64,000 nt of DNA from a virus: positions 1 through 64,000 of the IMG/VR virus record IMGVR_UViG_3300030419_007368; one strand, given 5' to 3'. A model generated the notes under the pieces. It was not told the DNA's origin and did no database searches. It saw nothing but the letters and a program-made list of their open reading frames with translations. The position numbers were made by a program, and so were the translations under genes. Positions within the stretch are counted from its first letter, which is position 1, and every line of letters begins with the position of its first letter. Positions 4,001 through 47,805 of this stretch are shown here, one piece after another.

Positions 4001-4332
4001 AGATCATTCTCCACTTCTAATATGTCAAATATTGTTTTAATTTCTTCTTCTTTTAACGAAAATTTATCTTTATTTTCGCTAGCTAATCTGTGCATCTGCT
4101 TTATCTTTTTGCGCTTATTTTTGCCTTGTATCGCATTCTTTTCCTTACAAGAATCCAAAAAATTCAACACGCGCTCATCGCTCTCGATGTAACCGGTTAA
4201 CATAAAGCGAAAAAACTGTGATTGACTCAAGCCATCGTACTGACACCTTATCCTCAGCTTGGCTTGTCTTTCTGCGGTATCATAAAACATTATTTTCTTT
4301 CTTTCTTCAGTTTTAGAACCTTTGTCGCTCAT
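3997..4332 (-). CDS. ribbon-helix-helix-like regulator candidate
   Basis: 111 residues. Residues ~12-50 show the pattern of a ribbon-helix-helix DNA-binding domain: a short strand (KKIMFYDTAE), a helix (RQAKLRIRCQYDG) and a second helix opened by LSQSQFFRFML. The C-terminal part is Lys/Glu-rich and helical. It is coupled at both ends by 4-base ATGA overlaps (IMPDH/GMPR-like gene upstream, sigma-region-4-like gene downstream), which suggests a small regulatory cassette. The fold assignment is inference from the pattern, and the target is unknown. Confidence 0.75.
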   Translation of the reverse strand: MSDKGSKTEERKKIMFYDTAERQAKLRIRCQYDGLSQSQFFRFMLTGYIESDERVLNFLDSCKEKNAIQGKNKRKKIKQMHRLASENKDKFSLKEEEIKTIFDILEVENDL

Positions 4333-5351
4333 TTATCTCTCCAAAGGATGTGAGTTCCGGATTCGCTTTGGCCCGCTGAAGTCTGAGTCGTGAATTCACA
4401 GTTTAATTGCAGGTCTCTAATGCTAGTGCATCCTGAATAGGATAAGCCACTTCGAATGCCTCCGGCAATATCTCTCAACACTTCAGCGACCGGGCCGCGA
4501 TATGCAACAGTAGAGGACACGCCCTCTGGTGTAGAGGATTTCCCCCTCCAATCCTTTTGTGCGTTGCTCGAAGCCATCCCTCTATAAACCTTATATCTAG
4601 ACCCATCGGCGGAAGTAAACACTTGCCCCGGAGTCTCTTTTGTTCCAGCTAACATCGACCCCAACATCACAAAGTCAGCGCCGGCGGCTAGGGCCTTGAT
4701 TATATCGCCGCTAGTTTTGAAGCCGCCGTCAGCTACAATGGGTATTTCATGAGCAGTTCTTGCGCAATCGATGACGCTCTGCAACGTTGGTACACCATGC
4801 CCACTAACCAGCCGGGTGGAGCAAATAGAGCCACCGCCAATTCCGACACGAACTGAGTCGGCGCCCCATGAAGCAAGATCGTCAAACGCTTCTAGCGTTG
4901 CAACATTTCCCGCCATAAGGTGCACATCACGCCCAAATTTGTTCTTCAAACTGGACAGAGCATCTCTCATCATCACGTGATGGCCATGAGCTACGTCGAT
5001 ACAAAGTATGTTGGCGCCGGAGTCGACAACATTTTGCGCCCTCTCTAAGAAGTCGCCAGTCATACCGATTGCTGCAGCCACATGCTTGACGCCGGAAGTA
5101 TAAACATCAAAAACGATCTTAGCCTGTTCTTCGACAGAGTTATACCTGTGAATAATTCCCAACCCGCCGGCGGAAGACATAGACTTTGCCATGTTAAGCT
5201 CGGTAACCGTGTCCATGGGACTAGATATCACAGGTAGAGTAAGCTCAATGGATTCGGACAAGAACGCACTGGTATCGACATCAGACCTGCTGCGTATTTC
5301 ACTATATTTTGGCACTAGGAGTGTATCATCAAATGACAGCGATTTCTTCAT
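4329..5351 (-). CDS. guaB-like: IMP dehydrogenase / GMP reductase family enzyme
   Basis: A (beta/alpha)8 NAD(P)-dependent purine enzyme of 340 residues. It shows the substrate loop GGGSICSTR with catalytic Cys177, the phosphate site [24 protein letters not shown], the flap YRGMASS and the [12 protein letters not shown] segment. The CBS domain pair of typical IMPDH (about 490 residues) is absent, as in GMP reductase (about 350), so the direction (IMP to XMP, or GMP to IMP) cannot be fixed from sequence. The ATG at 5351 was chosen because AGAGG precedes it and it gives an ATGA overlap with the DUF3310 gene. It would adjust guanine nucleotide pools during infection. Confidence 0.9.
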
Positions 5352-5680
5352 TGTTGACCGCCTCTTAGGTTGTTCAGTCTTCGCTGCAAATACCAAATTG
5401 CCTTCTCGATATCTCTCACTGCAGTGCCTTTGTGCATATGTCGGGATATATACTTGATGGCGTTACCGCAATTAAAGTCCAAATTCCAATCTTCTATAAC
5501 ATCAATGGTTTCATAAGCGCCATGATTGTAGTGCGAAGGGTGATCGACTAGGTTTAGCTTTACGTTCACTAAAGTACTGTTAGTTCCATCTGGATCGCAA
5601 GTCGAACCACCCTTAGGATGGCGATCTCGCATGTCCAGTTGCGCTGTGTTGTCGTGCCTGTTCTTTCTCTTATCTTTCAT
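5348..5680 (-). CDS. DUF3310 family protein
   Basis: 110 residues. The C-terminal ~60 match DUF3310: DHPSHYNHGAYETIDVIEDW, NCGNAIKYISRH and KAIWYLQRR. The domain is found in phage genes of nucleotide metabolism, such as the T7 gp1.7 nucleotide kinase, but alone it has no proven activity. Start ATG 5680 has AAGGAG at the ideal distance; an in-frame extension to 5713 has no such site. It lies between dUTPase (10-base gap) and the IMPDH/GMPR-like gene (ATGA overlap), in line with a nucleotide role. Confidence 0.88.
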   Translation of the reverse strand: MKDKRKNRHDNTAQLDMRDRHPKGGSTCDPDGTNSTLVNVKLNLVDHPSHYNHGAYETIDVIEDWNLDFNCGNAIKYISRHMHKGTAVRDIEKAIWYLQRRLNNLRGGQQ

Positions 5681-6434: not shown

Positions 6435-9400
6435 TTACCCCAATAATTTAAAAGTGTGGCGCACCGACCTGGTGCTGAATCCCCATTCTTCGCTAAAATC
6501 CAATTTAGCTGCATAGGGGCGATTAATATGTATAGTGTCAGTTTCTTTTACACCCCAGCACTTAATTGATGTCGTGGCTGAAGTCTCGTCGGTCACCTTA
6601 ACAATCCAATACGGCTTACCATTCTTAGTTTTCTTAACCAAGACTTCGCGGGGCACAAACCACGCGATACCGAGCTGTCGATCCCACTTACCAATTGGAG
6701 GCACCATGTGCTTGTCAATTGAGTCTCTAACCTGCTTGGACATAACCAGATCAAATGGGAAGATCCCGGTGAGGGAGGACACAAAATCAATTTTCTCTTC
6801 CTTAGAGAACTCTCCCTCCGGGGAATATAGATCTATATTCTCAAGCAACCGCTTCGTGGACTTTGGCTTATCTTGAATGCAAGCCATCCAAAAATGTTTT
6901 GATCCTGTGAAGCGATCATCGATTACGGACTTCAAAGCTTCCGAGCGACACAATACGTCGAGAGCCTTCTTGTTCAACTTTGAATACACAATATCTTCAT
7001 TAAACAACAATTCTTCCACATTGTTAAATGGTCGATTGTTGATAATCTGCTCAATCGCTTTGTCACCCAAGCCCTTGATAGAACTAAGAGGTTGAATTAG
7101 AGTTTTTCCATCCTCAGCGATCTCCCACTGCGCGGTTGATGTGTTAATGTCGAGAGCTTTAATCTTAAACCCGCTCTTCTGTGCTAAAGAAATAGCAGCC
7201 TCTTTGCGAGATTCGGGCTCCTTGTCAAGAAACGCAGCAATCCAACATTCAGGGTAATAGTTCAATAGCCATGCGCATTGAAAACTGAGTATAGAATAAG
7301 AAACAGCGTGAGACTTATTAAACCCATAACCGCTAAAGTACTCGAACGTTTGCCATAGGTCGCTTGCTGTGCTCTCCGCAATCTTCTTCTCCTTGCAGCC
7401 CTCGATAAATTTCTCTCTAATTTTATTCTTCTCTTGTGCACCTTTTCCAGTTCCTTTCTTTGTTAAAAGCTTGCGAAGTTTATTCCCCTCGTCAAGGGAA
7501 ATATCCTTTCCAAGTTTATGTGCAAGCAAGGCAATCTGCTCCTGAAATATAAGGAATCCAGCAGTTTCACTAGTGACCTCCTCAAAGACGTCATTAAAAT
7601 AGTAGACGTCATCCAAATTGTTCTTTGCCTTGACATATTTTTTATCGACGCCGGCGGAAAGTGGTCCTGGCCGGTAGATGGAAGTAATCGCAGAAATATC
7701 AATGATATTCTCTGGCTTTGCTCTTCGGGCTAGCCTTTGAGCGCCGGCATTAGTAAACTGGAAAACTCCAACAAATTTTCCTTTGTGGAAGATATTCTTG
7801 TACACTTTGCTGTCATTCAAATCGATCTTATCAGGGTGCAGGAACTTATCATAATAACCTTTGATGTCCTTAAAGGTTGGATTCTCGACATCATAATATC
7901 TCCTTAGCACGTGTGCCACTGCGGACTCGATCATCTCCAACGTAGAAAGCCCAAGTAAGTCAAATTTAATGAAGCCAAGGGGCTCAAGATGCCTCACATT
8001 CATTCCTTCTGACCACGGGGTCTGCATCACACCACCAGAACAAATCAAAGGCATGTGCTTGTCAAGGTCCTCTCCGATCACAACGCCGCCGGCATGACGG
8101 CTAGTTGACCTAACCTGGCCGACAAGAGACTCAACATGAGTCTTGATGTGGGGGTATTTGACAAGGAACATGTGTAGTGATTCAGAGTATTCCATAACCT
8201 CTTCAAAAGTTGGAACATACACACCAGCACGAATACCATGCTTTGCCTTCGCCTTCGGCGTAGCTTCTTTAACCATCCGACTTGTGACAGCGTTCACCTC
8301 TGGATATGGAACATCATAGAACTTTCCGATATCTTTGATGAGAGAACGAAGCTGCAAAGTGTTAAAGTTTGAGATGGGAACAACAGTGGTTTCTCCCCAC
8401 TCCTCGGCCAAGATCTCCTTAAGCCCGAATGCATCGCTGACGTCATAATCAATATCTGGATAATCTTTAGCATCAGATCGTAAAAACCTGCTGAAAAGTA
8501 GACCATGCTTAATTGGATCAACTTGTGTAATGCCAAGCACATAAGACACCAGAGAGCCAGCTGCGGATCCACGGCCCGGGCCAGCTAACATATGGTCCCC
8601 CGCCTTGTCTGATACTGCTTTCATGGTAAGAAAGTATTTACTGAAGCCTCTATTGTTGATGACAGTAAGCTCGTTTTTAAGTCGATCAACGTACTCTTGG
8701 TTGTCTTCCAGACCTAGTTTTCTCAGCCCAGCAATTGATTCTTTAACCAGCGTTTGTTCACCAGATTCGCCATCAGGGACAACAAACCCAGGGAGACGGA
8801 CAGTGTCATCCGGCATAAAGTCTTCAATTCTCTCATTAGCGATCCAATGAGTTTTTACAAGGGAATCATACACGATATCGTCGTTGTACGACACGCCGCA
8901 CTCTTCTGAATACTTCTTGTATGAGTCCCACATTTGATCGCCGTTCTTCGGATAAAGTTCCATGCCCATCTCATCGATATCGATTGGTAGCTCAGACTTC
9001 ATGTACTCTGGTACCTTTGATTTACCGAGCCAACCTAGGCGCTTATAAAGCTCGCGATCCTTCCAGGCCTCTGCGCTTGGATAGTGTGAATCAGCAGTAG
9101 AAATTAATTCAATTCCGAACTCTTCGTGCATTTTGATAACATACTTGTTTAATTCATGCTGCTCAGGCACGTTGTTCCATTGTAGCTCTCCGTACCAGCG
9201 ATCGCCCAGGCAGTCAATCATGCGTCGTGTGGTTGTGCGCATGGCCTCCAAGACGGCCTCTTCTCCCTCTTCTCGATTGTTCCAGTAATCCTTAGCATAT
9301 ACTCCACCTAAACATGCAGAGGAGGCGATTACTCCCTCTCCATATTCTTTAAGCAGAGCGTAATCCAAGCGCGGTTTGCGATAGAAATTATCGCCTTGGT

Positions 9401-9866
9401 GCGAATCAGATACAATCTTGAAGATGTTGTTAAGCCCAGTTTGATTCATTGCCAACAGAACAAGGTGGCCGCTGGAGTTGATTATACTCTTCGACTTACC
9501 TTTCGAAGCAGCTTCATCCTCGGTTTCGACCTTATCTGTGTCGTTAATGACTTTCCTAGCTTGCTTCTTATCTTCTTTAATGCGATCGTACTCTCGCTTC
9601 CATTCTTCAACGGAAGGCACGAAGTATGCTTCTACACCAAAGATGGGCTTAAAGTCTTTGCCGGCTTCCTTCATCTTTTTAGCGTGCAATACTTGATAAG
9701 ACATGCCATTCATATTTCCATGGTCAGTCAACGCTAGTGCGCTCATGCCGTTCTCATATGCAAAATCCATATGCTCTTGGGGGTATCCGAACCCGTCAAA
9801 GACCGAGCCGGCCACGCTGTGTGCATGCAAGCCTACGAAAGGAATGCTAGGTGTAGTTCTAGTCAT
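6435..9866 (-). CDS. dnaE: DNA polymerase III alpha subunit (family C, DnaE type)
   Basis: Replicative polymerase, 1143 aa, near the length of bacterial DnaE (about 1160). Order: PHP domain (HAHS near the N-terminus, ALTDHGN), palm with GPGRGSAAG and the two catalytic Asp in PDIDYD, fingers, tandem HhH (IKGLGDKAIEQI), and a C-terminal OB fold (KTKNGKPYWIVKVTDE). No internal 3'-5' exonuclease domain was seen. Start ATG 9866 has GGAG; an upstream extension does not. It stands apart from the replication block at 19-26 kb, where a family-A polymerase-like gene is found. A possible own promoter is at 9895-9922. Confidence 0.95.
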   Translation of the reverse strand: MTRTTPSIPFVGLHAHSVAGSVFDGFGYPQEHMDFAYENGMSALALTDHGNMNGMSYQVLHAKKMKEAGKDFKPIFGVEAYFVPSVEEWKREYDRIKEDKKQARKVINDTDKVETEDEAASKGKSKSIINSSGHLVLLAMNQTGLNNIFKIVSDSHQGDNFYRKPRLDYALLKEYGEGVIASSACLGGVYAKDYWNNREEGEEAVLEAMRTTTRRMIDCLGDRWYGELQWNNVPEQHELNKYVIKMHEEFGIELISTADSHYPSAEAWKDRELYKRLGWLGKSKVPEYMKSELPIDIDEMGMELYPKNGDQMWDSYKKYSEECGVSYNDDIVYDSLVKTHWIANERIEDFMPDDTVRLPGFVVPDGESGEQTLVKESIAGLRKLGLEDNQEYVDRLKNELTVINNRGFSKYFLTMKAVSDKAGDHMLAGPGRGSAAGSLVSYVLGITQVDPIKHGLLFSRFLRSDAKDYPDIDYDVSDAFGLKEILAEEWGETTVVPISNFNTLQLRSLIKDIGKFYDVPYPEVNAVTSRMVKEATPKAKAKHGIRAGVYVPTFEEVMEYSESLHMFLVKYPHIKTHVESLVGQVRSTSRHAGGVVIGEDLDKHMPLICSGGVMQTPWSEGMNVRHLEPLGFIKFDLLGLSTLEMIESAVAHVLRRYYDVENPTFKDIKGYYDKFLHPDKIDLNDSKVYKNIFHKGKFVGVFQFTNAGAQRLARRAKPENIIDISAITSIYRPGPLSAGVDKKYVKAKNNLDDVYYFNDVFEEVTSETAGFLIFQEQIALLAHKLGKDISLDEGNKLRKLLTKKGTGKGAQEKNKIREKFIEGCKEKKIAESTASDLWQTFEYFSGYGFNKSHAVSYSILSFQCAWLLNYYPECWIAAFLDKEPESRKEAAISLAQKSGFKIKALDINTSTAQWEIAEDGKTLIQPLSSIKGLGDKAIEQIINNRPFNNVEELLFNEDIVYSKLNKKALDVLCRSEALKSVIDDRFTGSKHFWMACIQDKPKSTKRLLENIDLYSPEGEFSKEEKIDFVSSLTGIFPFDLVMSKQVRDSIDKHMVPPIGKWDRQLGIAWFVPREVLVKKTKNGKPYWIVKVTDETSATTSIKCWGVKETDTIHINRPYAAKLDFSEEWGFSTRSVRHTFKLLG

Positions 9867-9894
9867 CAATACTTCTCCATGTTTACTACAAAAC

Positions 9895-9922
9895 AATATA
9901 AAAATATGTTATCGAAAGTAAA
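9895..9922 (-). promoter_or_regulatory. candidate sigma70-type promoter ahead of dnaE
   Basis: Minus-strand TTTACT (9917-9922), 16-base spacer, TATATT (9895-9900), ending 28 bases before the dnaE start and just after the stop of the muramidase gene. The -10 is 5/6 and the -35 is 4/6 to consensus. Confidence 0.4.
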
Positions 9923-9929
9923 CAGGAGT

Positions 9930-11525
9930 TTAATTATTTAAGATTTCAGACTGTATAGACAATATCAACCTTTTAATTTCTTCCAGATTTCTGCGCTGGG
10001 CTGCGTCTTTATATACCTTTCGCTTGTGGTAGTGAGTATTGCCCTTGACTTTGCCGTAGACGCCGGATCCCATTGCGTCATAATACTTTTTTCCGACCCT
10101 ACTCAAGACCCACTTGTAGGTCTTGTTAACTACTTGCCTGTACTTTTGATAGTTATACTCTTTTCCGTGACAATTAATGGTCGCGGCCGGCCCGACAGGT
10201 GGAGGACCTCCCCACTCATCTACCTTATTTGCTAATTTTATAACGTACCTGGATACGTAATCCGAAAAAACCTCCGGGTCGAGCGCTCGACAGACGTCAT
10301 TACCACCAAGAGTAACAATTCTTATTGATGTGGGATTGTAAGCTGCAATAGTCTCTGCCATACTCTTCTGCTCTTGCAGTTTCTTTTTGTCCTTTTTCGA
10401 CTTGCCCTGTAGGTCGGCCTGCTTTGCCATAAACAAAGTTTCATACCACCATCTTGATGAAGCTCCGTTCCTGTACAGAACTCTAACCGCTCTGTCCGAC
10501 GTCTCAAATTTCTTAATTAAAGTTGCCTCCTGGTAGGCGGTCGACGAGTCTCCAATAAAAAGAATTCTTTCTTTATACTTCTCGAAGCTTTTTGGTACAA
10601 ATACGTACGTATAGGAAAAAGTAACGGCTATTGGAACGCCATTTTTCTTGGCCGGTGCAAACTCAGACCTCCGTAAAGCGTCCATAACGACCTGGACAAA
10701 TTCCTTTGTAACGCGCTTTGAATTGGGGCGGTCTGGGTCAAGCTTGGTGCCTATTACTTTCCCTTCAGCATCGAGGGTCACCAGCACAGACACACCTAGC
10801 CGAGCCTTTACGGTCGGCTCAGGGACCGGGCGAGCGAGCTTTAGTAACTTAGGGTTCTCAATACCGGCTGGGGCGGGGGGATCAGCATGCACCACTCCAT
10901 GATTTGGATAAAGCTGCTTAAACGCCTCTGCCCCCGTTTTTACTTTTGTGGCATAGCTTCTGACAGGTCGACCGTAGTATATGTCAGTAGTCTTAAGATA
11001 ATACTTCATATCTCCAGTTTTCACCGCTTTATTCGCTGGTATCACTAGTCTTTTTCCTACGGCTTTCACAAACCTGGTTAAAAGCTCCATGCTAACACGC
11101 GCCGGGTCGCTTTGATAAGCCTCCCAAGCTTGTTGAGGGTCGGGATAAATCTTCAAAAGATGACGACCCATGACTTGAAAAGTACCCCACGCGGTTGATG
11201 CAATTGCAGCTTTCGGAGCAATTTTAAAAGCCTTTTCGAAATTTCTATATTTTGCCCGGTGATCAGAGTAAGTTTTTTTTCCGGATTGGTGAGGGCCGAT
11301 ATGTAATTTTTGCTTTTTAAGCTCCGGTATTTTATCCTCTTCGCCGAACTCTTTTGCGCGAGCAAGTAAATGATTATTGTTGAATGCTCGGGCGCCTGGA
11401 GAAAACGAGGTTTCAACCAAAGCCATACCGGCTATCCAAGCCGGATGCACTCCTGTATTGCTCGCCGCTTCGATAAGCAAATCATAATTGCTTTTTATCT
11501 TTTTTTTAGCTTTTTCTATATTCAT
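9930..11525 (-). CDS. muramidase / TonB_C-like / SGNH hydrolase fusion
   Basis: 531 residues, three parts. Residues ~1-210 resemble the phage N-acetylmuramidase family DUF3380 (ALVETSFSPGA with candidate acid Glu38; STAWGTFQVMG at 110-120). Residues ~240-310 match a TonB C-terminal-like fold (VLVTLDAEGKVIGT, ALRRSEFAPAKKNG). Residues ~318-530 form an SGNH/GDSL hydrolase: FIGDSS with nucleophile Ser327, a glycine in RNGASS, GGND (407-410), and a late His in GNTHYH. It likely cuts glycan and removes acyl groups from the wall or surface polysaccharide, in the tail or at lysis. There is no signal peptide. The leader is AT-rich with no clear Shine-Dalgarno. Confidence 0.8.
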   Translation of the reverse strand: MNIEKAKKKIKSNYDLLIEAASNTGVHPAWIAGMALVETSFSPGARAFNNNHLLARAKEFGEEDKIPELKKQKLHIGPHQSGKKTYSDHRAKYRNFEKAFKIAPKAAIASTAWGTFQVMGRHLLKIYPDPQQAWEAYQSDPARVSMELLTRFVKAVGKRLVIPANKAVKTGDMKYYLKTTDIYYGRPVRSYATKVKTGAEAFKQLYPNHGVVHADPPAPAGIENPKLLKLARPVPEPTVKARLGVSVLVTLDAEGKVIGTKLDPDRPNSKRVTKEFVQVVMDALRRSEFAPAKKNGVPIAVTFSYTYVFVPKSFEKYKERILFIGDSSTAYQEATLIKKFETSDRAVRVLYRNGASSRWWYETLFMAKQADLQGKSKKDKKKLQEQKSMAETIAAYNPTSIRIVTLGGNDVCRALDPEVFSDYVSRYVIKLANKVDEWGGPPPVGPAATINCHGKEYNYQKYRQVVNKTYKWVLSRVGKKYYDAMGSGVYGKVKGNTHYHKRKVYKDAAQRRNLEEIKRLILSIQSEILNN

Positions 11526-11542
11526 TAATAATAATTAGTTTT

Positions 11543-12397
11543 TTAATCATCAAATCCGATTTCATTCCACTCTGCGTAGGAAAGCGTCGCCGGCTTCTTA
11601 ATATATTTAGTTTCTCCTAGAAACTCACAGTATTTTTCCCAGCAATCAATTGAGAAATATTCTTCGACTGAGATAGTATGGTGGTTCTCAAAATCAAGGT
11701 TTTCAAATACTTTCTCCAAATCAAAATGTTTATATGAGTAGCGCTCTTCGACGGAAAGTCGTTCTTGGCGCTGGACTGGATCTCTCCACAACCCACTGGA
11801 TGAAGTGTGGGACTCCTTTTTCAACTGTTCGATATCATCCATGTCAAATGTGACCCCTAAATAAAGATTATCCTTCACAGTTCTCCCCTCATAACTAATT
11901 GCAACTTTTGAATCTAAGAGTTGTCGTCGAACATCGCGCACAACAGAAGGAATATAGTAACCATATGGCCATGCGACATAGAATCTGTCAGGCGCCAGCC
12001 AGCGACTTATGCCACTCGACACCTTATGGGCGGTAAGGGCGCCGTGAATCGCAGACCACGCTAAATTATCCCTCTTGTTGATATCCCTAATCGCCAGTGG
12101 AATGTAATATATTTTTATAGGTCTTTTGAAGTCGTTCTTGTTGTGTTCAAAATGTCTATAACTGTAAATTGGGTCCTGTATTTTCTCGCCGACATGATGC
12201 TTTATGAGGCTGGAGACGTCATCACCGCAAACAACCCATATAGTGTTGCAGCCGGCATATGCACACTCCAGCACAGCCCTCTCAACGGCTAGATAGTTTG
12301 GTGCTAGCGGCATCATACTAGCATGCCATGGCATGTTAAAATCAGATCTTATACCAGAGACAGGTACGATGCCGGCAATGTGTCTTTTTAAACTCAT
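11543..12397 (-). CDS. possible nucleotidyltransferase-like protein
   Basis: 284 residues, family not named with certainty. The N-terminus (IAGIVPVSG, then MPWHASMMPL, VERAVLECAYAGCNTIWVV) resembles the first half of a GT-A type sugar nucleotidyltransferase: a Rossmann-like strand-loop, a Val-Glu-Arg-Ala helix and a second strand. A later APDRFYVAWPYG segment could be the acidic metal-binding strand. The classical G-x-G-T-R loop is absent, so activity is doubtful. It lies among cell-wall and virion genes, so surface-sugar modification is conceivable. This is inference only. Confidence 0.7.
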   Translation of the reverse strand: MSLKRHIAGIVPVSGIRSDFNMPWHASMMPLAPNYLAVERAVLECAYAGCNTIWVVCGDDVSSLIKHHVGEKIQDPIYSYRHFEHNKNDFKRPIKIYYIPLAIRDINKRDNLAWSAIHGALTAHKVSSGISRWLAPDRFYVAWPYGYYIPSVVRDVRRQLLDSKVAISYEGRTVKDNLYLGVTFDMDDIEQLKKESHTSSSGLWRDPVQRQERLSVEERYSYKHFDLEKVFENLDFENHHTISVEEYFSIDCWEKYCEFLGETKYIKKPATLSYAEWNEIGFDD

Positions 12398-12420: not shown

Positions 12421-12837
12421 TCAATAATCTTTTTGATACTTTAACATCATCTCGTCGATGTATTCCGCCACGTGATCGTTCTGCGGAATGTCCGGCAGCA
12501 TTTTTCCAATTTCTCGAATTACATCGACGCATTGTGCTTCCGGGCCAAACTCGCGCTCGTCGTAGTCGTCATAGTATTCCTCATACAAGTCACCTTCTCC
12601 CATCAAGAAATCTTCCTCGTTGACCGGACCTACGTCCAGGCCGGTGGGTCCGTAATAATCATCGTCTTCTTCCTGGTAAAGGTAGTCGCTGGGGCCGAGC
12701 GCCCATGCGTCTTCCTCGTAAATGAGATCCTCGTCGAGTTCTTCCTCAAGCTCTTCTTCGAATTCTTCAAAAATGGGCGACAAAGCATCATACTCTTCTT
12801 TAATAATTTCTTGTAGTCTTTTTTTGGTAATCTTCAT
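12421..12837 (-). CDS. acidic protein with N-terminal IIKEE tag, candidate internal virion protein
   Basis: 138 residues, very rich in Glu, Asp and Tyr. The N-terminus MKITKKRLQEIIKEE closely matches the start of the 14836-15090 product (MKITRSRLKQIIREE), although the rest differs. The tag ends in I-K-E, which fits the (I/L)-x-E site of the T4-type prohead protease, so it may direct packaging into the prohead (inference). The C-terminus carries a short helical segment (HVAEYIDEMMLKY). It is preceded by AGGAGA and follows the large basic protein gene by 21 bases. Confidence 0.75.
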   Translation of the reverse strand: MKITKKRLQEIIKEEYDALSPIFEEFEEELEEELDEDLIYEEDAWALGPSDYLYQEEDDDYYGPTGLDVGPVNEEDFLMGEGDLYEEYYDDYDEREFGPEAQCVDVIREIGKMLPDIPQNDHVAEYIDEMMLKYQKDY

Positions 12838-14835: not shown

Positions 14836-15090
14836 CTATCCAACTTCGCATTCATTCTCCAACATAGAGGCATATGCTTCCGTAACAGCGTCTTCGACGC
14901 CGGCACAGATTGGGTCAGGGTCAGGCGACTCCGACAAAGCCTGAAGATAACCGTGTATGGCTGCGGCTTTATTAGCTAAAGCAACCAACTCCTCAACAGG
15001 TCTTTGTGGGCTGTCATCCATAACTGCTGAAGCCATGGCGTCCATTTCCTCTCTAATGATTTGCTTAAGTCGCGATCTAGTAATCTTCAT
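14836..15090 (-). CDS. small protein with N-terminal IIREE tag
   Basis: 84 residues beginning MKITRSRLKQIIREE, the same tag as the 12421-12837 product, then a moderately acidic helical body (VEELVALANKAAAI). The start at 15090 gives an ATGA overlap with the preceding gene and has GAGAGG upstream. The tag ends with I-R-E, a candidate prohead-protease site. Its body is unlike its tagged partner. A late-promoter-like element lies 32 bases upstream. Confidence 0.75.
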   Translation of the reverse strand: MKITRSRLKQIIREEMDAMASAVMDDSPQRPVEELVALANKAAAIHGYLQALSESPDPDPICAGVEDAVTEAYASMLENECEVG

Positions 15091-15839
15091 GTCCCTCTCC
15101 AAAAAATAGAATCAACCTCTTTATAAATAGTCTGATAAATTGGATAAACATCTCTTTTCCAAAAAGCCAAACTAATCGCCGGCGAACCAAGTTTGCTGAG
15201 TATGTCAGCAGCCTTGATCCTCGCCATCGTATCAGAAAATCGATGGTCGTTTAGTTGTTCCGGAGACAGTAGTGATTCACAAACAATATCCTTATGATTG
15301 TTATTACCATCCACTCGACAACTATTAAAAAAACGTATCTCCCTAATAAAGCCGTCATCAAGGTGGATATCGCTAGAATGACTGCCAAGAGAGCGAGCGT
15401 CAAACCAATCCAAAACTCGATATCTTATAACTTTCCGAGAAAAGTACTCTTCCAGGCCGAAGACGTTCTCCAGATCAAACAAGTATAATTTATCATACCT
15501 TATTTGATGGAGGTTGTTATTCTTCGTGTGCACCGTTATTAGCTTGGCTTCTGGATCGATCCTCAGAGACTCTACCAAGTTTGTAAACGGGTTTAAACAC
15601 TTCTCGAACAGCTCATAACTACGTCGAGCCCAGTCTTCTTCTAGTGTACCAGCGTCGGAGTTGAGAAGTGGCTCATAAGAATGAAGATCAGGAAAACGAT
15701 TGAAAAGTATAGGAATCTCGTTCTCAAGGGCAAATCGTACTGCATCTAAGCCTCCTCCCAGAACAACTCTAGGCCAGTCTTTTTCAACACCCGCACCCAT
15801 CGTAACCCGAAATCTTGACCCTTTTTCTATATTTCTCAA
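15087..15839 (-). CDS. unknown protein with Rossmann-like N-terminus
   Basis: 250 residues, not recognised. An early RVVLGGGLDAVRFAL segment looks like a glycine-rich nucleotide-binding turn, and YDKLYLFDLENV resembles a later strand of such folds, so a dinucleotide-binding protein is possible but unproven. The longest reading starts at TTG 15839 and overlaps the transglycosylase gene by 56 bases without a clear ribosome site. An internal ATG at 15800 is an alternative that would keep the glycine-rich turn. Confidence 0.7.
   Translation of the reverse strand: MRNIEKGSRFRVTMGAGVEKDWPRVVLGGGLDAVRFALENEIPILFNRFPDLHSYEPLLNSDAGTLEEDWARRSYELFEKCLNPFTNLVESLRIDPEAKLITVHTKNNNLHQIRYDKLYLFDLENVFGLEEYFSRKVIRYRVLDWFDARSLGSHSSDIHLDDGFIREIRFFNSCRVDGNNNHKDIVCESLLSPEQLNDHRFSDTMARIKAADILSKLGSPAISLAFWKRDVYPIYQTIYKEVDSIFWRGT
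15122..15131 (-). promoter_or_regulatory. candidate late promoter element
   Basis: Coding-strand ACTATTTATA, 32 bases before the tagged small gene at 15090 and within the 3' end of the upstream gene. It matches the elements at 34054, 44260 and 58454 exactly. Confidence 0.4.
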
Positions 15840-16497
15840 TGGACTTGTGCCACTTTTTCAACAGACGGTAGTGCTTAACCTTCTCGTAGCACCGACCCCC
15901 TTTTTTTGGAGCCCTGACGGCTGTAACCCAAGCGGCCAACCACTTGCGCTTTTCACTTTTAAAACTGCAATTTTTCTTGACGGATTTTTTTAGCTGTCTC
16001 TTGATTCGCTTCATCCAAAAATCTGCAGATTCTGTAGGATTTTCTCTGTCGATATACTTCTCAGCCCAAGGCCAAAACTGCAATATCCCTACAGCCTTTG
16101 GCTTTCTCTTTTTACTGAATTTTCTATCGCCCCTGGCTTGAGGATTGTAGCCACTCTCCATGCAGGCTGCTGCCAACAACATGCCTCTTAGACTTGGAGG
16201 AGGATTATATTTTTTTTCTATCGCTACAAGCTTCCAAAGCAACGCCTCGTTGACCTTCGTGACATTCCTCACATTAGGGCAATTGAAGACAGCCTCGTCG
16301 ATTAGTTCATCATACGTAACTGGGCTGTTCTTTCCAGTCTTTACGAAGTTCTTATCCGACCCATCACTCAACCTTATTGGTTTTACGAAGGAGCCAATAT
16401 CTGGAGTGCCCTTGTGTGATAGATTTTTGTAGTCTGGCTTCGCATCGCTGCCTGCGCCAGTTGGCAGTATCAAAAACAAAGCAAAAATAAAATTCAT
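15784..16497 (-). CDS. secreted lytic transglycosylase-like protein
   Basis: 237 residues. The N-terminus MNFIFALFLILPTGAGSDAK is a probable signal peptide. The enzyme core follows SLT/goose-lysozyme logic: AAACMESGYNPQARGD with candidate catalytic Glu114, then AVGILQFWPWAEKY. The C-terminus is very basic with a final CGC. It would cleave peptidoglycan in the periplasm of a Gram-negative host, acting in lysis or as an exported wall enzyme. No holin is evident beside it. The GGGAG ribosome site sits in an AT-rich leader (16498-16600). Confidence 0.85.
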   Translation of the reverse strand: MNFIFALFLILPTGAGSDAKPDYKNLSHKGTPDIGSFVKPIRLSDGSDKNFVKTGKNSPVTYDELIDEAVFNCPNVRNVTKVNEALLWKLVAIEKKYNPPPSLRGMLLAAACMESGYNPQARGDRKFSKKRKPKAVGILQFWPWAEKYIDRENPTESADFWMKRIKRQLKKSVKKNCSFKSEKRKWLAAWVTAVRAPKKGGRCYEKVKHYRLLKKWHKSIEKYRKRVKISGYDGCGC

Positions 16498-34053: not shown

Positions 34054-34063
34054 TATAAATAGT
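34054..34063 (-). promoter_or_regulatory. candidate late promoter element
   Basis: Coding-strand ACTATTTATA, 26 bases upstream of the tape-measure gene start and just downstream of the terminator at 34073-34102. Confidence 0.55.
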
Positions 34064-39118: not shown

Positions 39119-39128
39119 AATAAATAGT
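39119..39128 (-). promoter_or_regulatory. candidate late promoter element
   Basis: Coding-strand ACTATTTATT, 51 bases ahead of the sheath gene in an 81-base gap. Confidence 0.5.
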
Positions 39129-44259: not shown

Positions 44260-44269
44260 TATAAATAGT
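44260..44269 (-). promoter_or_regulatory. candidate late promoter element
   Basis: Coding-strand ACTATTTATA, 94 bases before the paralogue A start. It is the farthest of the set; the intervening leader holds two hairpins. Confidence 0.5.
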
Positions 44270-47795: not shown

Positions 47796-47805
47796 AATAA
47801 ATAGT
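47796..47805 (-). promoter_or_regulatory. candidate late promoter element
   Basis: Coding-strand ACTATTTATT, 29 bases before the scaffold start; would drive scaffold plus capsid. Confidence 0.55.

Follow-up and report, generated by a model that had tools for sequence, protein, structure and literature searches.

Closest described systems

Muramidases of the family PF11860 (DUF3380) are known from phage endolysins, in which the domain stands alone or together with a PG_binding_1 domain (PMC5674055, PMC8972805). Mutation of Glu101 in the endolysin AP3gp15 (PDB 5nm7) abolishes 99.4% of the activity (PMC5674055), and both Glu29 and Glu46 are needed in Pae87 (7q4s and 7q4t), the latter being conserved throughout the examples studied there (PMC8972805). 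Lysozymes are inhibited when MurNAc is O-acetylated at C-6, and lytic transglycosylases, which need the free hydroxyl, are then precluded altogether (PMC6174289). The O-acetyl-peptidoglycan esterase Ape1 and PatB are SGNH proteins (PMC6174289) with Ser, Gly, Asn and His in the SGNH fold, and both are separate bacterial proteins without glycosidase fusion. An N-terminal wall-cutting part and a C-terminal GDSL part have been placed on one chain in the chimera ELP-E10, which was generated by laboratory domain shuffling and requires both parts to kill from outside (PMC12173070).

The gene described here lies on a viral contig of 147,474 bases, the first 64,000 nucleotides of which form the window, and encodes a 531-aa fusion of a muramidase, a TonB_C-like module and an SGNH domain (9930-11525, minus strand; open reading frame with translation, Pfam). 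The lysozyme-like fold and the first catalytic Glu are common to this protein, AP3gp15 and Pae87, whereas an Asn in place of the second Glu and the extra TonB_C-like and SGNH domains set it apart from both. Similarly, it possesses the Ser, Gly, Asn and His of Ape1 and PatB but lacks the Asp of the DxxH motif. The order of its two putative enzyme domains is that of ELP-E10, an engineered chimera from which it is clear that a pairing of this type can function (PMC12173070). Each of the domains is known; what is rare is their natural order, and two of the catalytic substitutions are informative. No natural muramidase-SGNH fusion was found by keyword in the open literature, which is weak evidence of novelty, and the combination seems to be rare.

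Domain architecture of the fusion protein

The reading frame opens with ATG and is located in a tight row of same-strand genes. The first-pass annotation had proposed one 531-residue protein with three domains, and both the frame and the domains were borne out by Pfam, fold alignments and a relative from Acidobacteria, the domains at differing strength because PF11860 scores above its cut-off while the SGNH and TonB_C matches fall below theirs and are independently backed.

The assignment of the N-terminal muramidase domain (residues 1-205; 10911-11525, minus strand) is firm, resting on Pfam, PDB profile matches, a fold match, alignments and the literature. The PF11860 match has an E-value of 2.3e-11 with the whole 531-aa protein and of 6.1e-12 with the isolated domain (44.7-46.6 bits against a gathering cut-off of 22.3), profile matches were obtained to PDB entries 7q4s and 5nm7, and residues 12-203 of the full-length model were aligned by VIA-align with Pae87 (7q4t) at a Z of 8.7.

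The C-terminal SGNH/GDSL domain (residues 319-531; 9933-10571, minus strand) was recognised from Lipase_GDSL, fold alignments and a syntenic homologue. Its Lipase_GDSL score of 22.1 bits is just below the cut-off of 23.6 (E 0.001 for the whole protein, 1.9e-4 for the isolated domain), and VIA-align placed residues 316-521 of the full-length model on SGNH hydrolases with Z of 8.7-10.4 in nearly all of the 50 rows listed. The full-length AlphaFold2 model is poor (pLDDT 49), and the other AlphaFold2 model is also of low confidence (pLDDT 54). Foldseek with the full-length model alone gave nothing significant (best E 0.24), and when PDB sequences were searched, the TonB_C stretch and an SGNH profile each gave chance matches only.

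Between the two enzyme domains lies the TonB_C-like module (Pfam match at residues 245-309; 10599-10793, minus strand), for which PF03544 reached an E-value of 0.013 with the whole protein and 0.001 with the isolated module, its 19.9 bits being below the cut-off of 24.6. Aligned over 86 columns, this stretch shows 40% identity to the C-terminal end of a TPR-TonB_C protein from Acidobacteria, with an E-value of 7e-9 in a single comparison and of 1.3e-5 by phmmer among 4,699 frames, and a beta-beta-alpha-beta order was predicted for it in the low-confidence model. It is situated mid-chain behind an N-terminal enzyme domain, rather than at the C-terminus behind an N-terminal membrane anchor as in TonB proteins. 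A profile search of 396 genomes from the phylum of the Acidobacteria relative yielded nothing useful, with one weak partial match containing an internal stop.

Catalytic residues

The putative catalytic Glu of the muramidase is E38 (11412-11414, in ALVETS), which aligns with the catalytic Glu101 of AP3gp15 and Glu29 of Pae87 at the end of helix 2. The position of the second catalytic Glu (Glu46 in Pae87, Glu118 in AP3gp15) is occupied by N49 (11379-11381), in an alignment that may shift here by one residue within a stretch holding no Glu anyway. An Asn (N57) also stands at this position in the 676-aa homologue described below, while the second Glu is kept in all 5 unfused relatives aligned (2 hub-type and 3 endolysin-like). 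With the second catalytic Glu missing, ordinary hydrolase activity of the muramidase cannot be assumed. As both fusions combine the first Glu with Asn for the second, the domain may work in the manner of a single-Glu lytic transglycosylase; a weak or dead glycosidase is an equally good reading of the Glu-to-Asn change.

In the SGNH domain, the first-pass annotation had pointed to a block I GDSS and a block III GGND, and both were found as described. By sequence, blocks I, II, III and V provide S327 (10545-10547), G354 (10464-10466), N409 (10299-10301) and a candidate catalytic His at H498 or H500. The Asp of the block V DxxH motif is absent from the 531-aa protein, which reads GNTHYH, versus GDGIH in the 676-aa homologue.

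Relatives and origin

A 676-aa muramidase-SGNH protein is encoded in two related phage contigs (G012 and G013), the two copies being 97% identical to each other. It has the same domain order without the TonB_C-like module, carries its own different C-terminal extension, and features the full GDS/GGND/DGIH set in its SGNH domain. The 531-aa and 676-aa proteins share about 21-28% identity, with the SGNH residues kept at 21%, and BLASTP between them matched both domains, with E-values of 2e-7 and 3e-6. Both genes occupy one slot, bounded by a conserved gene for a 284-aa protein with no assigned function (11543-12397, minus strand; syntenic in more than 20 related loci) and the gene for a DnaE-like DNA polymerase III alpha (6435-9896, minus strand; Pfam and PHROGs), and in a small tree the two fused muramidase domains separated from 5 unfused ones with a support of 83. 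Given this synteny, the BLASTP matches and the tree, a common origin of both fusions is likely, if not certain. The presence of the homologue in the same slot without TonB_C indicates that the fusion is heritable and the TonB_C-like module optional. Elsewhere among the relatives, this slot is either vacant or taken by different genes, for example a cysteine-synthase-like one (by eye).

Beyond these, the whole 531-aa protein found no relative among 50,697 phage records or in a single-sequence scan of viral contigs, and its SGNH domain, when scanned against viral and bacterial genome contigs, returned no useful relatives. PatB structures are among those matched in fold by the SGNH domain of the homologue. 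Phage tail-fibre and tail-spike SGNH domains also match the homologue (e.g. Moo19 gp82, 9d81; Z 9.1), but such proteins have no muramidase, unlike the fusion protein. Proteins of the Moo19 gp82 type are presumably tail proteins acting on surface polysaccharide.

Related or other phages also encode hub-like PF11860 proteins (L162:592-2997, minus strand; L177:1795-4176; L179:2320-3693), two of the three with a VanY-like peptidase region. The muramidase domains of those at L162 and L177 are up to 41% identical to that of the fusion protein over about 100 residues. In contrast to the fusion protein, these two retain the second Glu, and they feature a VanY peptidase as well as an N-terminal region that looks by eye like a gp5-type OB domain. 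The muramidase matches at L177 and L179 were considered as further SGNH fusions and rejected, the proteins having hub-like N-termini.

Gene neighbourhood and upstream motif

The contig carries T4-like structural genes (terminase, portal, major head protein, sheath and tape measure), encodes DnaE polymerase and ribonucleotide reductase, and has close relatives in many other viral contigs, from the character of which the phage and its relatives are very probably marine. The fusion gene is the last of a cassette encoding proteins of 88 aa, 653 aa, 138 aa and 284 aa before it; a peptidoglycan-binding role assigned to the 653-aa neighbour by eye was dropped, as no profile or PDB match backs it. Also in the window is an SLT-like protein with a signal-peptide-like N-terminus (15784-16497, minus strand; Pfam SLT 0.0043), the probable main lysin, whose pattern ES..NP.A..GD...A.G..Q is kept in 11 homologues. 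Because the clade has this conserved lysin candidate, the fusion protein is probably accessory.

Many relatives have a lipoprotein-like gene of 680-760 aa between the reductase and DnaE, where this phage has the cassette (L119:11209-13287, L114:13228-15483 and L124:13166-15430, for example). A gene similar to IMP dehydrogenase / GMP reductase (4329-5396 of the window) is syntenic in relatives, and positions 115526-137135 of the contig (L195-L196) hold a long run of sugar-nucleotide and glycosyltransferase-like genes (by eye).

The motif ACTA[AT]TTA, a DNA pattern found post hoc, has 22 copies on the contig's coding strand against 3 on the opposite one, 16 of the 22 lying 8-110 nt upstream of starts (expected 8.5%, p 3e-13). 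These 16 mostly precede genes for tape measure, tube, sheath, connector and baseplate, and the motif is read as a putative late promoter. A perfect copy, ACTATTTATA, is located at the head of the cassette (15122-15131, minus strand), and other copies of ACTA[AT]TTA(T) in the window include 34054-34063, 39120-39128, 44260-44269 and 47797-47805. The fusion gene itself has a variant form only, ACTAATTAT (11531-11539, minus strand), 14 nt before its ATG, with no clear ribosome-binding site in between, and the homologue (P0002) has ACTAATTATA upstream of its start. From this arrangement, the fusion gene is probably expressed late. On the coding strand, the 64-kb window contains no copy of TATAAATA, the canonical late promoter of T4.

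Proteins starting with MKIT..RL..II.EE or L(F)ENWR.F.NE, which resemble capsid-targeting propeptides of T4, are encoded behind the motif at 14836-15090 and 12421-12837 of the window, with more such propeptide-like starts at 144615-145049 and 145080-147014 of the contig (L197), and the same pairing of motif and propeptide-like start is seen in related loci (L084:9198, L085:13244). Judged by their N-termini, these may be head-packaged internal proteins.

Proposed function and alternative readings

With slightly less than even confidence, we propose that the protein is a late-made, signal-less accessory wall enzyme of a T4-like phage, which de-O-acylates glycan and cuts it. The N-terminal lysozyme-fold domain would cut the MurNAc-GlcNAc bond with one catalytic Glu, E38, and the C-terminal SGNH domain would strip O-acyl groups, most likely O-acetyl, from the same or nearby glycan via Ser327 and a His. 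Since O-acetylation at MurNAc C-6 blocks both lysozymes and lytic transglycosylases, an esterase and a cutter on one chain could breach a wall protected in this way. The TonB_C-like module would most likely serve as an optional spacer or an envelope- or peptidoglycan-binding module, and the time of action would most likely be lysis, beside the conserved SLT-like lysin of the clade. We infer the activities, the substrate, the timing and the role of TonB_C from these features. The absent block V Asp and the low confidence of both AlphaFold2 models weigh against the proposal. The interpretation given in the first-pass annotation is partly upheld: the fold, the residues and the syntenic homologue in two contigs support its combination of glycan cutting and deacylation, ordinary hydrolysis by the muramidase cannot be presumed with the second catalytic Glu gone, and the contact with an envelope partner would run through a TonB_C-like module that the homologue lacks. 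A tail component, for which it had proposed a check, is not indicated: a hub OB domain is missing and the gene adjoins DnaE, away from the tail and baseplate genes; a T4 gp5-type hub lysozyme, by comparison, has both the OB domain and a location in the baseplate block.

A somewhat unlikely alternative is that the protein is carried in the virion as an entry lysin, opening the wall locally at genome delivery instead of at lysis. The late-promoter-like motif before the fusion gene, the hub-like N-termini of PF11860 proteins in related phages and the separate lysin candidate of the clade would fit such a role, as would the products of two cassette genes, which start with MKIT..RL..II.EE like T4 capsid-targeting propeptides (PMC9026906). 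However, a capsid-targeting-like N-terminus and a hub OB domain are both missing from the fusion protein itself, the gene for which is next to DnaE and far from the baseplate genes.

Within the proposal of an accessory wall enzyme, the loss of the second Glu together with the SGNH partner would fit a single-Glu reaction resembling that of lytic transglycosylases, the type most in need of a free C-6 hydroxyl. The fullest version, in which a lysozyme-fold domain converted to a lytic transglycosylase is fused to a peptidoglycan O-acetylesterase, with a captured bacterial TonB_C as envelope anchor, and uncaps and then cuts O-acetylated walls, is doubtful.

SGNH enzymes act on many substrates, and the domain might attack acyl chains of lipid or lipopolysaccharide and break the outer membrane in a spanin-like manner rather than remove sugar O-acetyl groups. 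The fold matches include lipases and TesA, a thioesterase/lysophospholipase, and the engineered endolysin-GDSL lipase chimera needed its lipase active site to kill from outside (PMC12173070); carbohydrate O-acetyl esterases and PatB were matched too, however, and the fold alone cannot separate substrates. We regard a lipid target as improbable. It is just as improbable that the SGNH and TonB_C-like parts are non-catalytic and merely bind glycan or an envelope protein, leaving the N-terminal domain as the sole enzyme, for although the block V Asp is missing and both parts score under the Pfam cut-offs, the protein has retained the Ser, Gly, Asn and His of the SGNH set while sharing 21% identity with the homologue, in which the set is complete.

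Implications

The fusion of a muramidase with an SGNH domain suggests a testable two-step opening of the protected wall, and the loss of the second Glu allows a direct test of whether a muramidase becomes a lytic transglycosylase. If its activities are true, the protein would be a natural counterpart to the recent engineered endolysin-lipase chimera, and a natural esterase-glycosidase phage protein of this kind would show how phages get past the O-acetyl shield.
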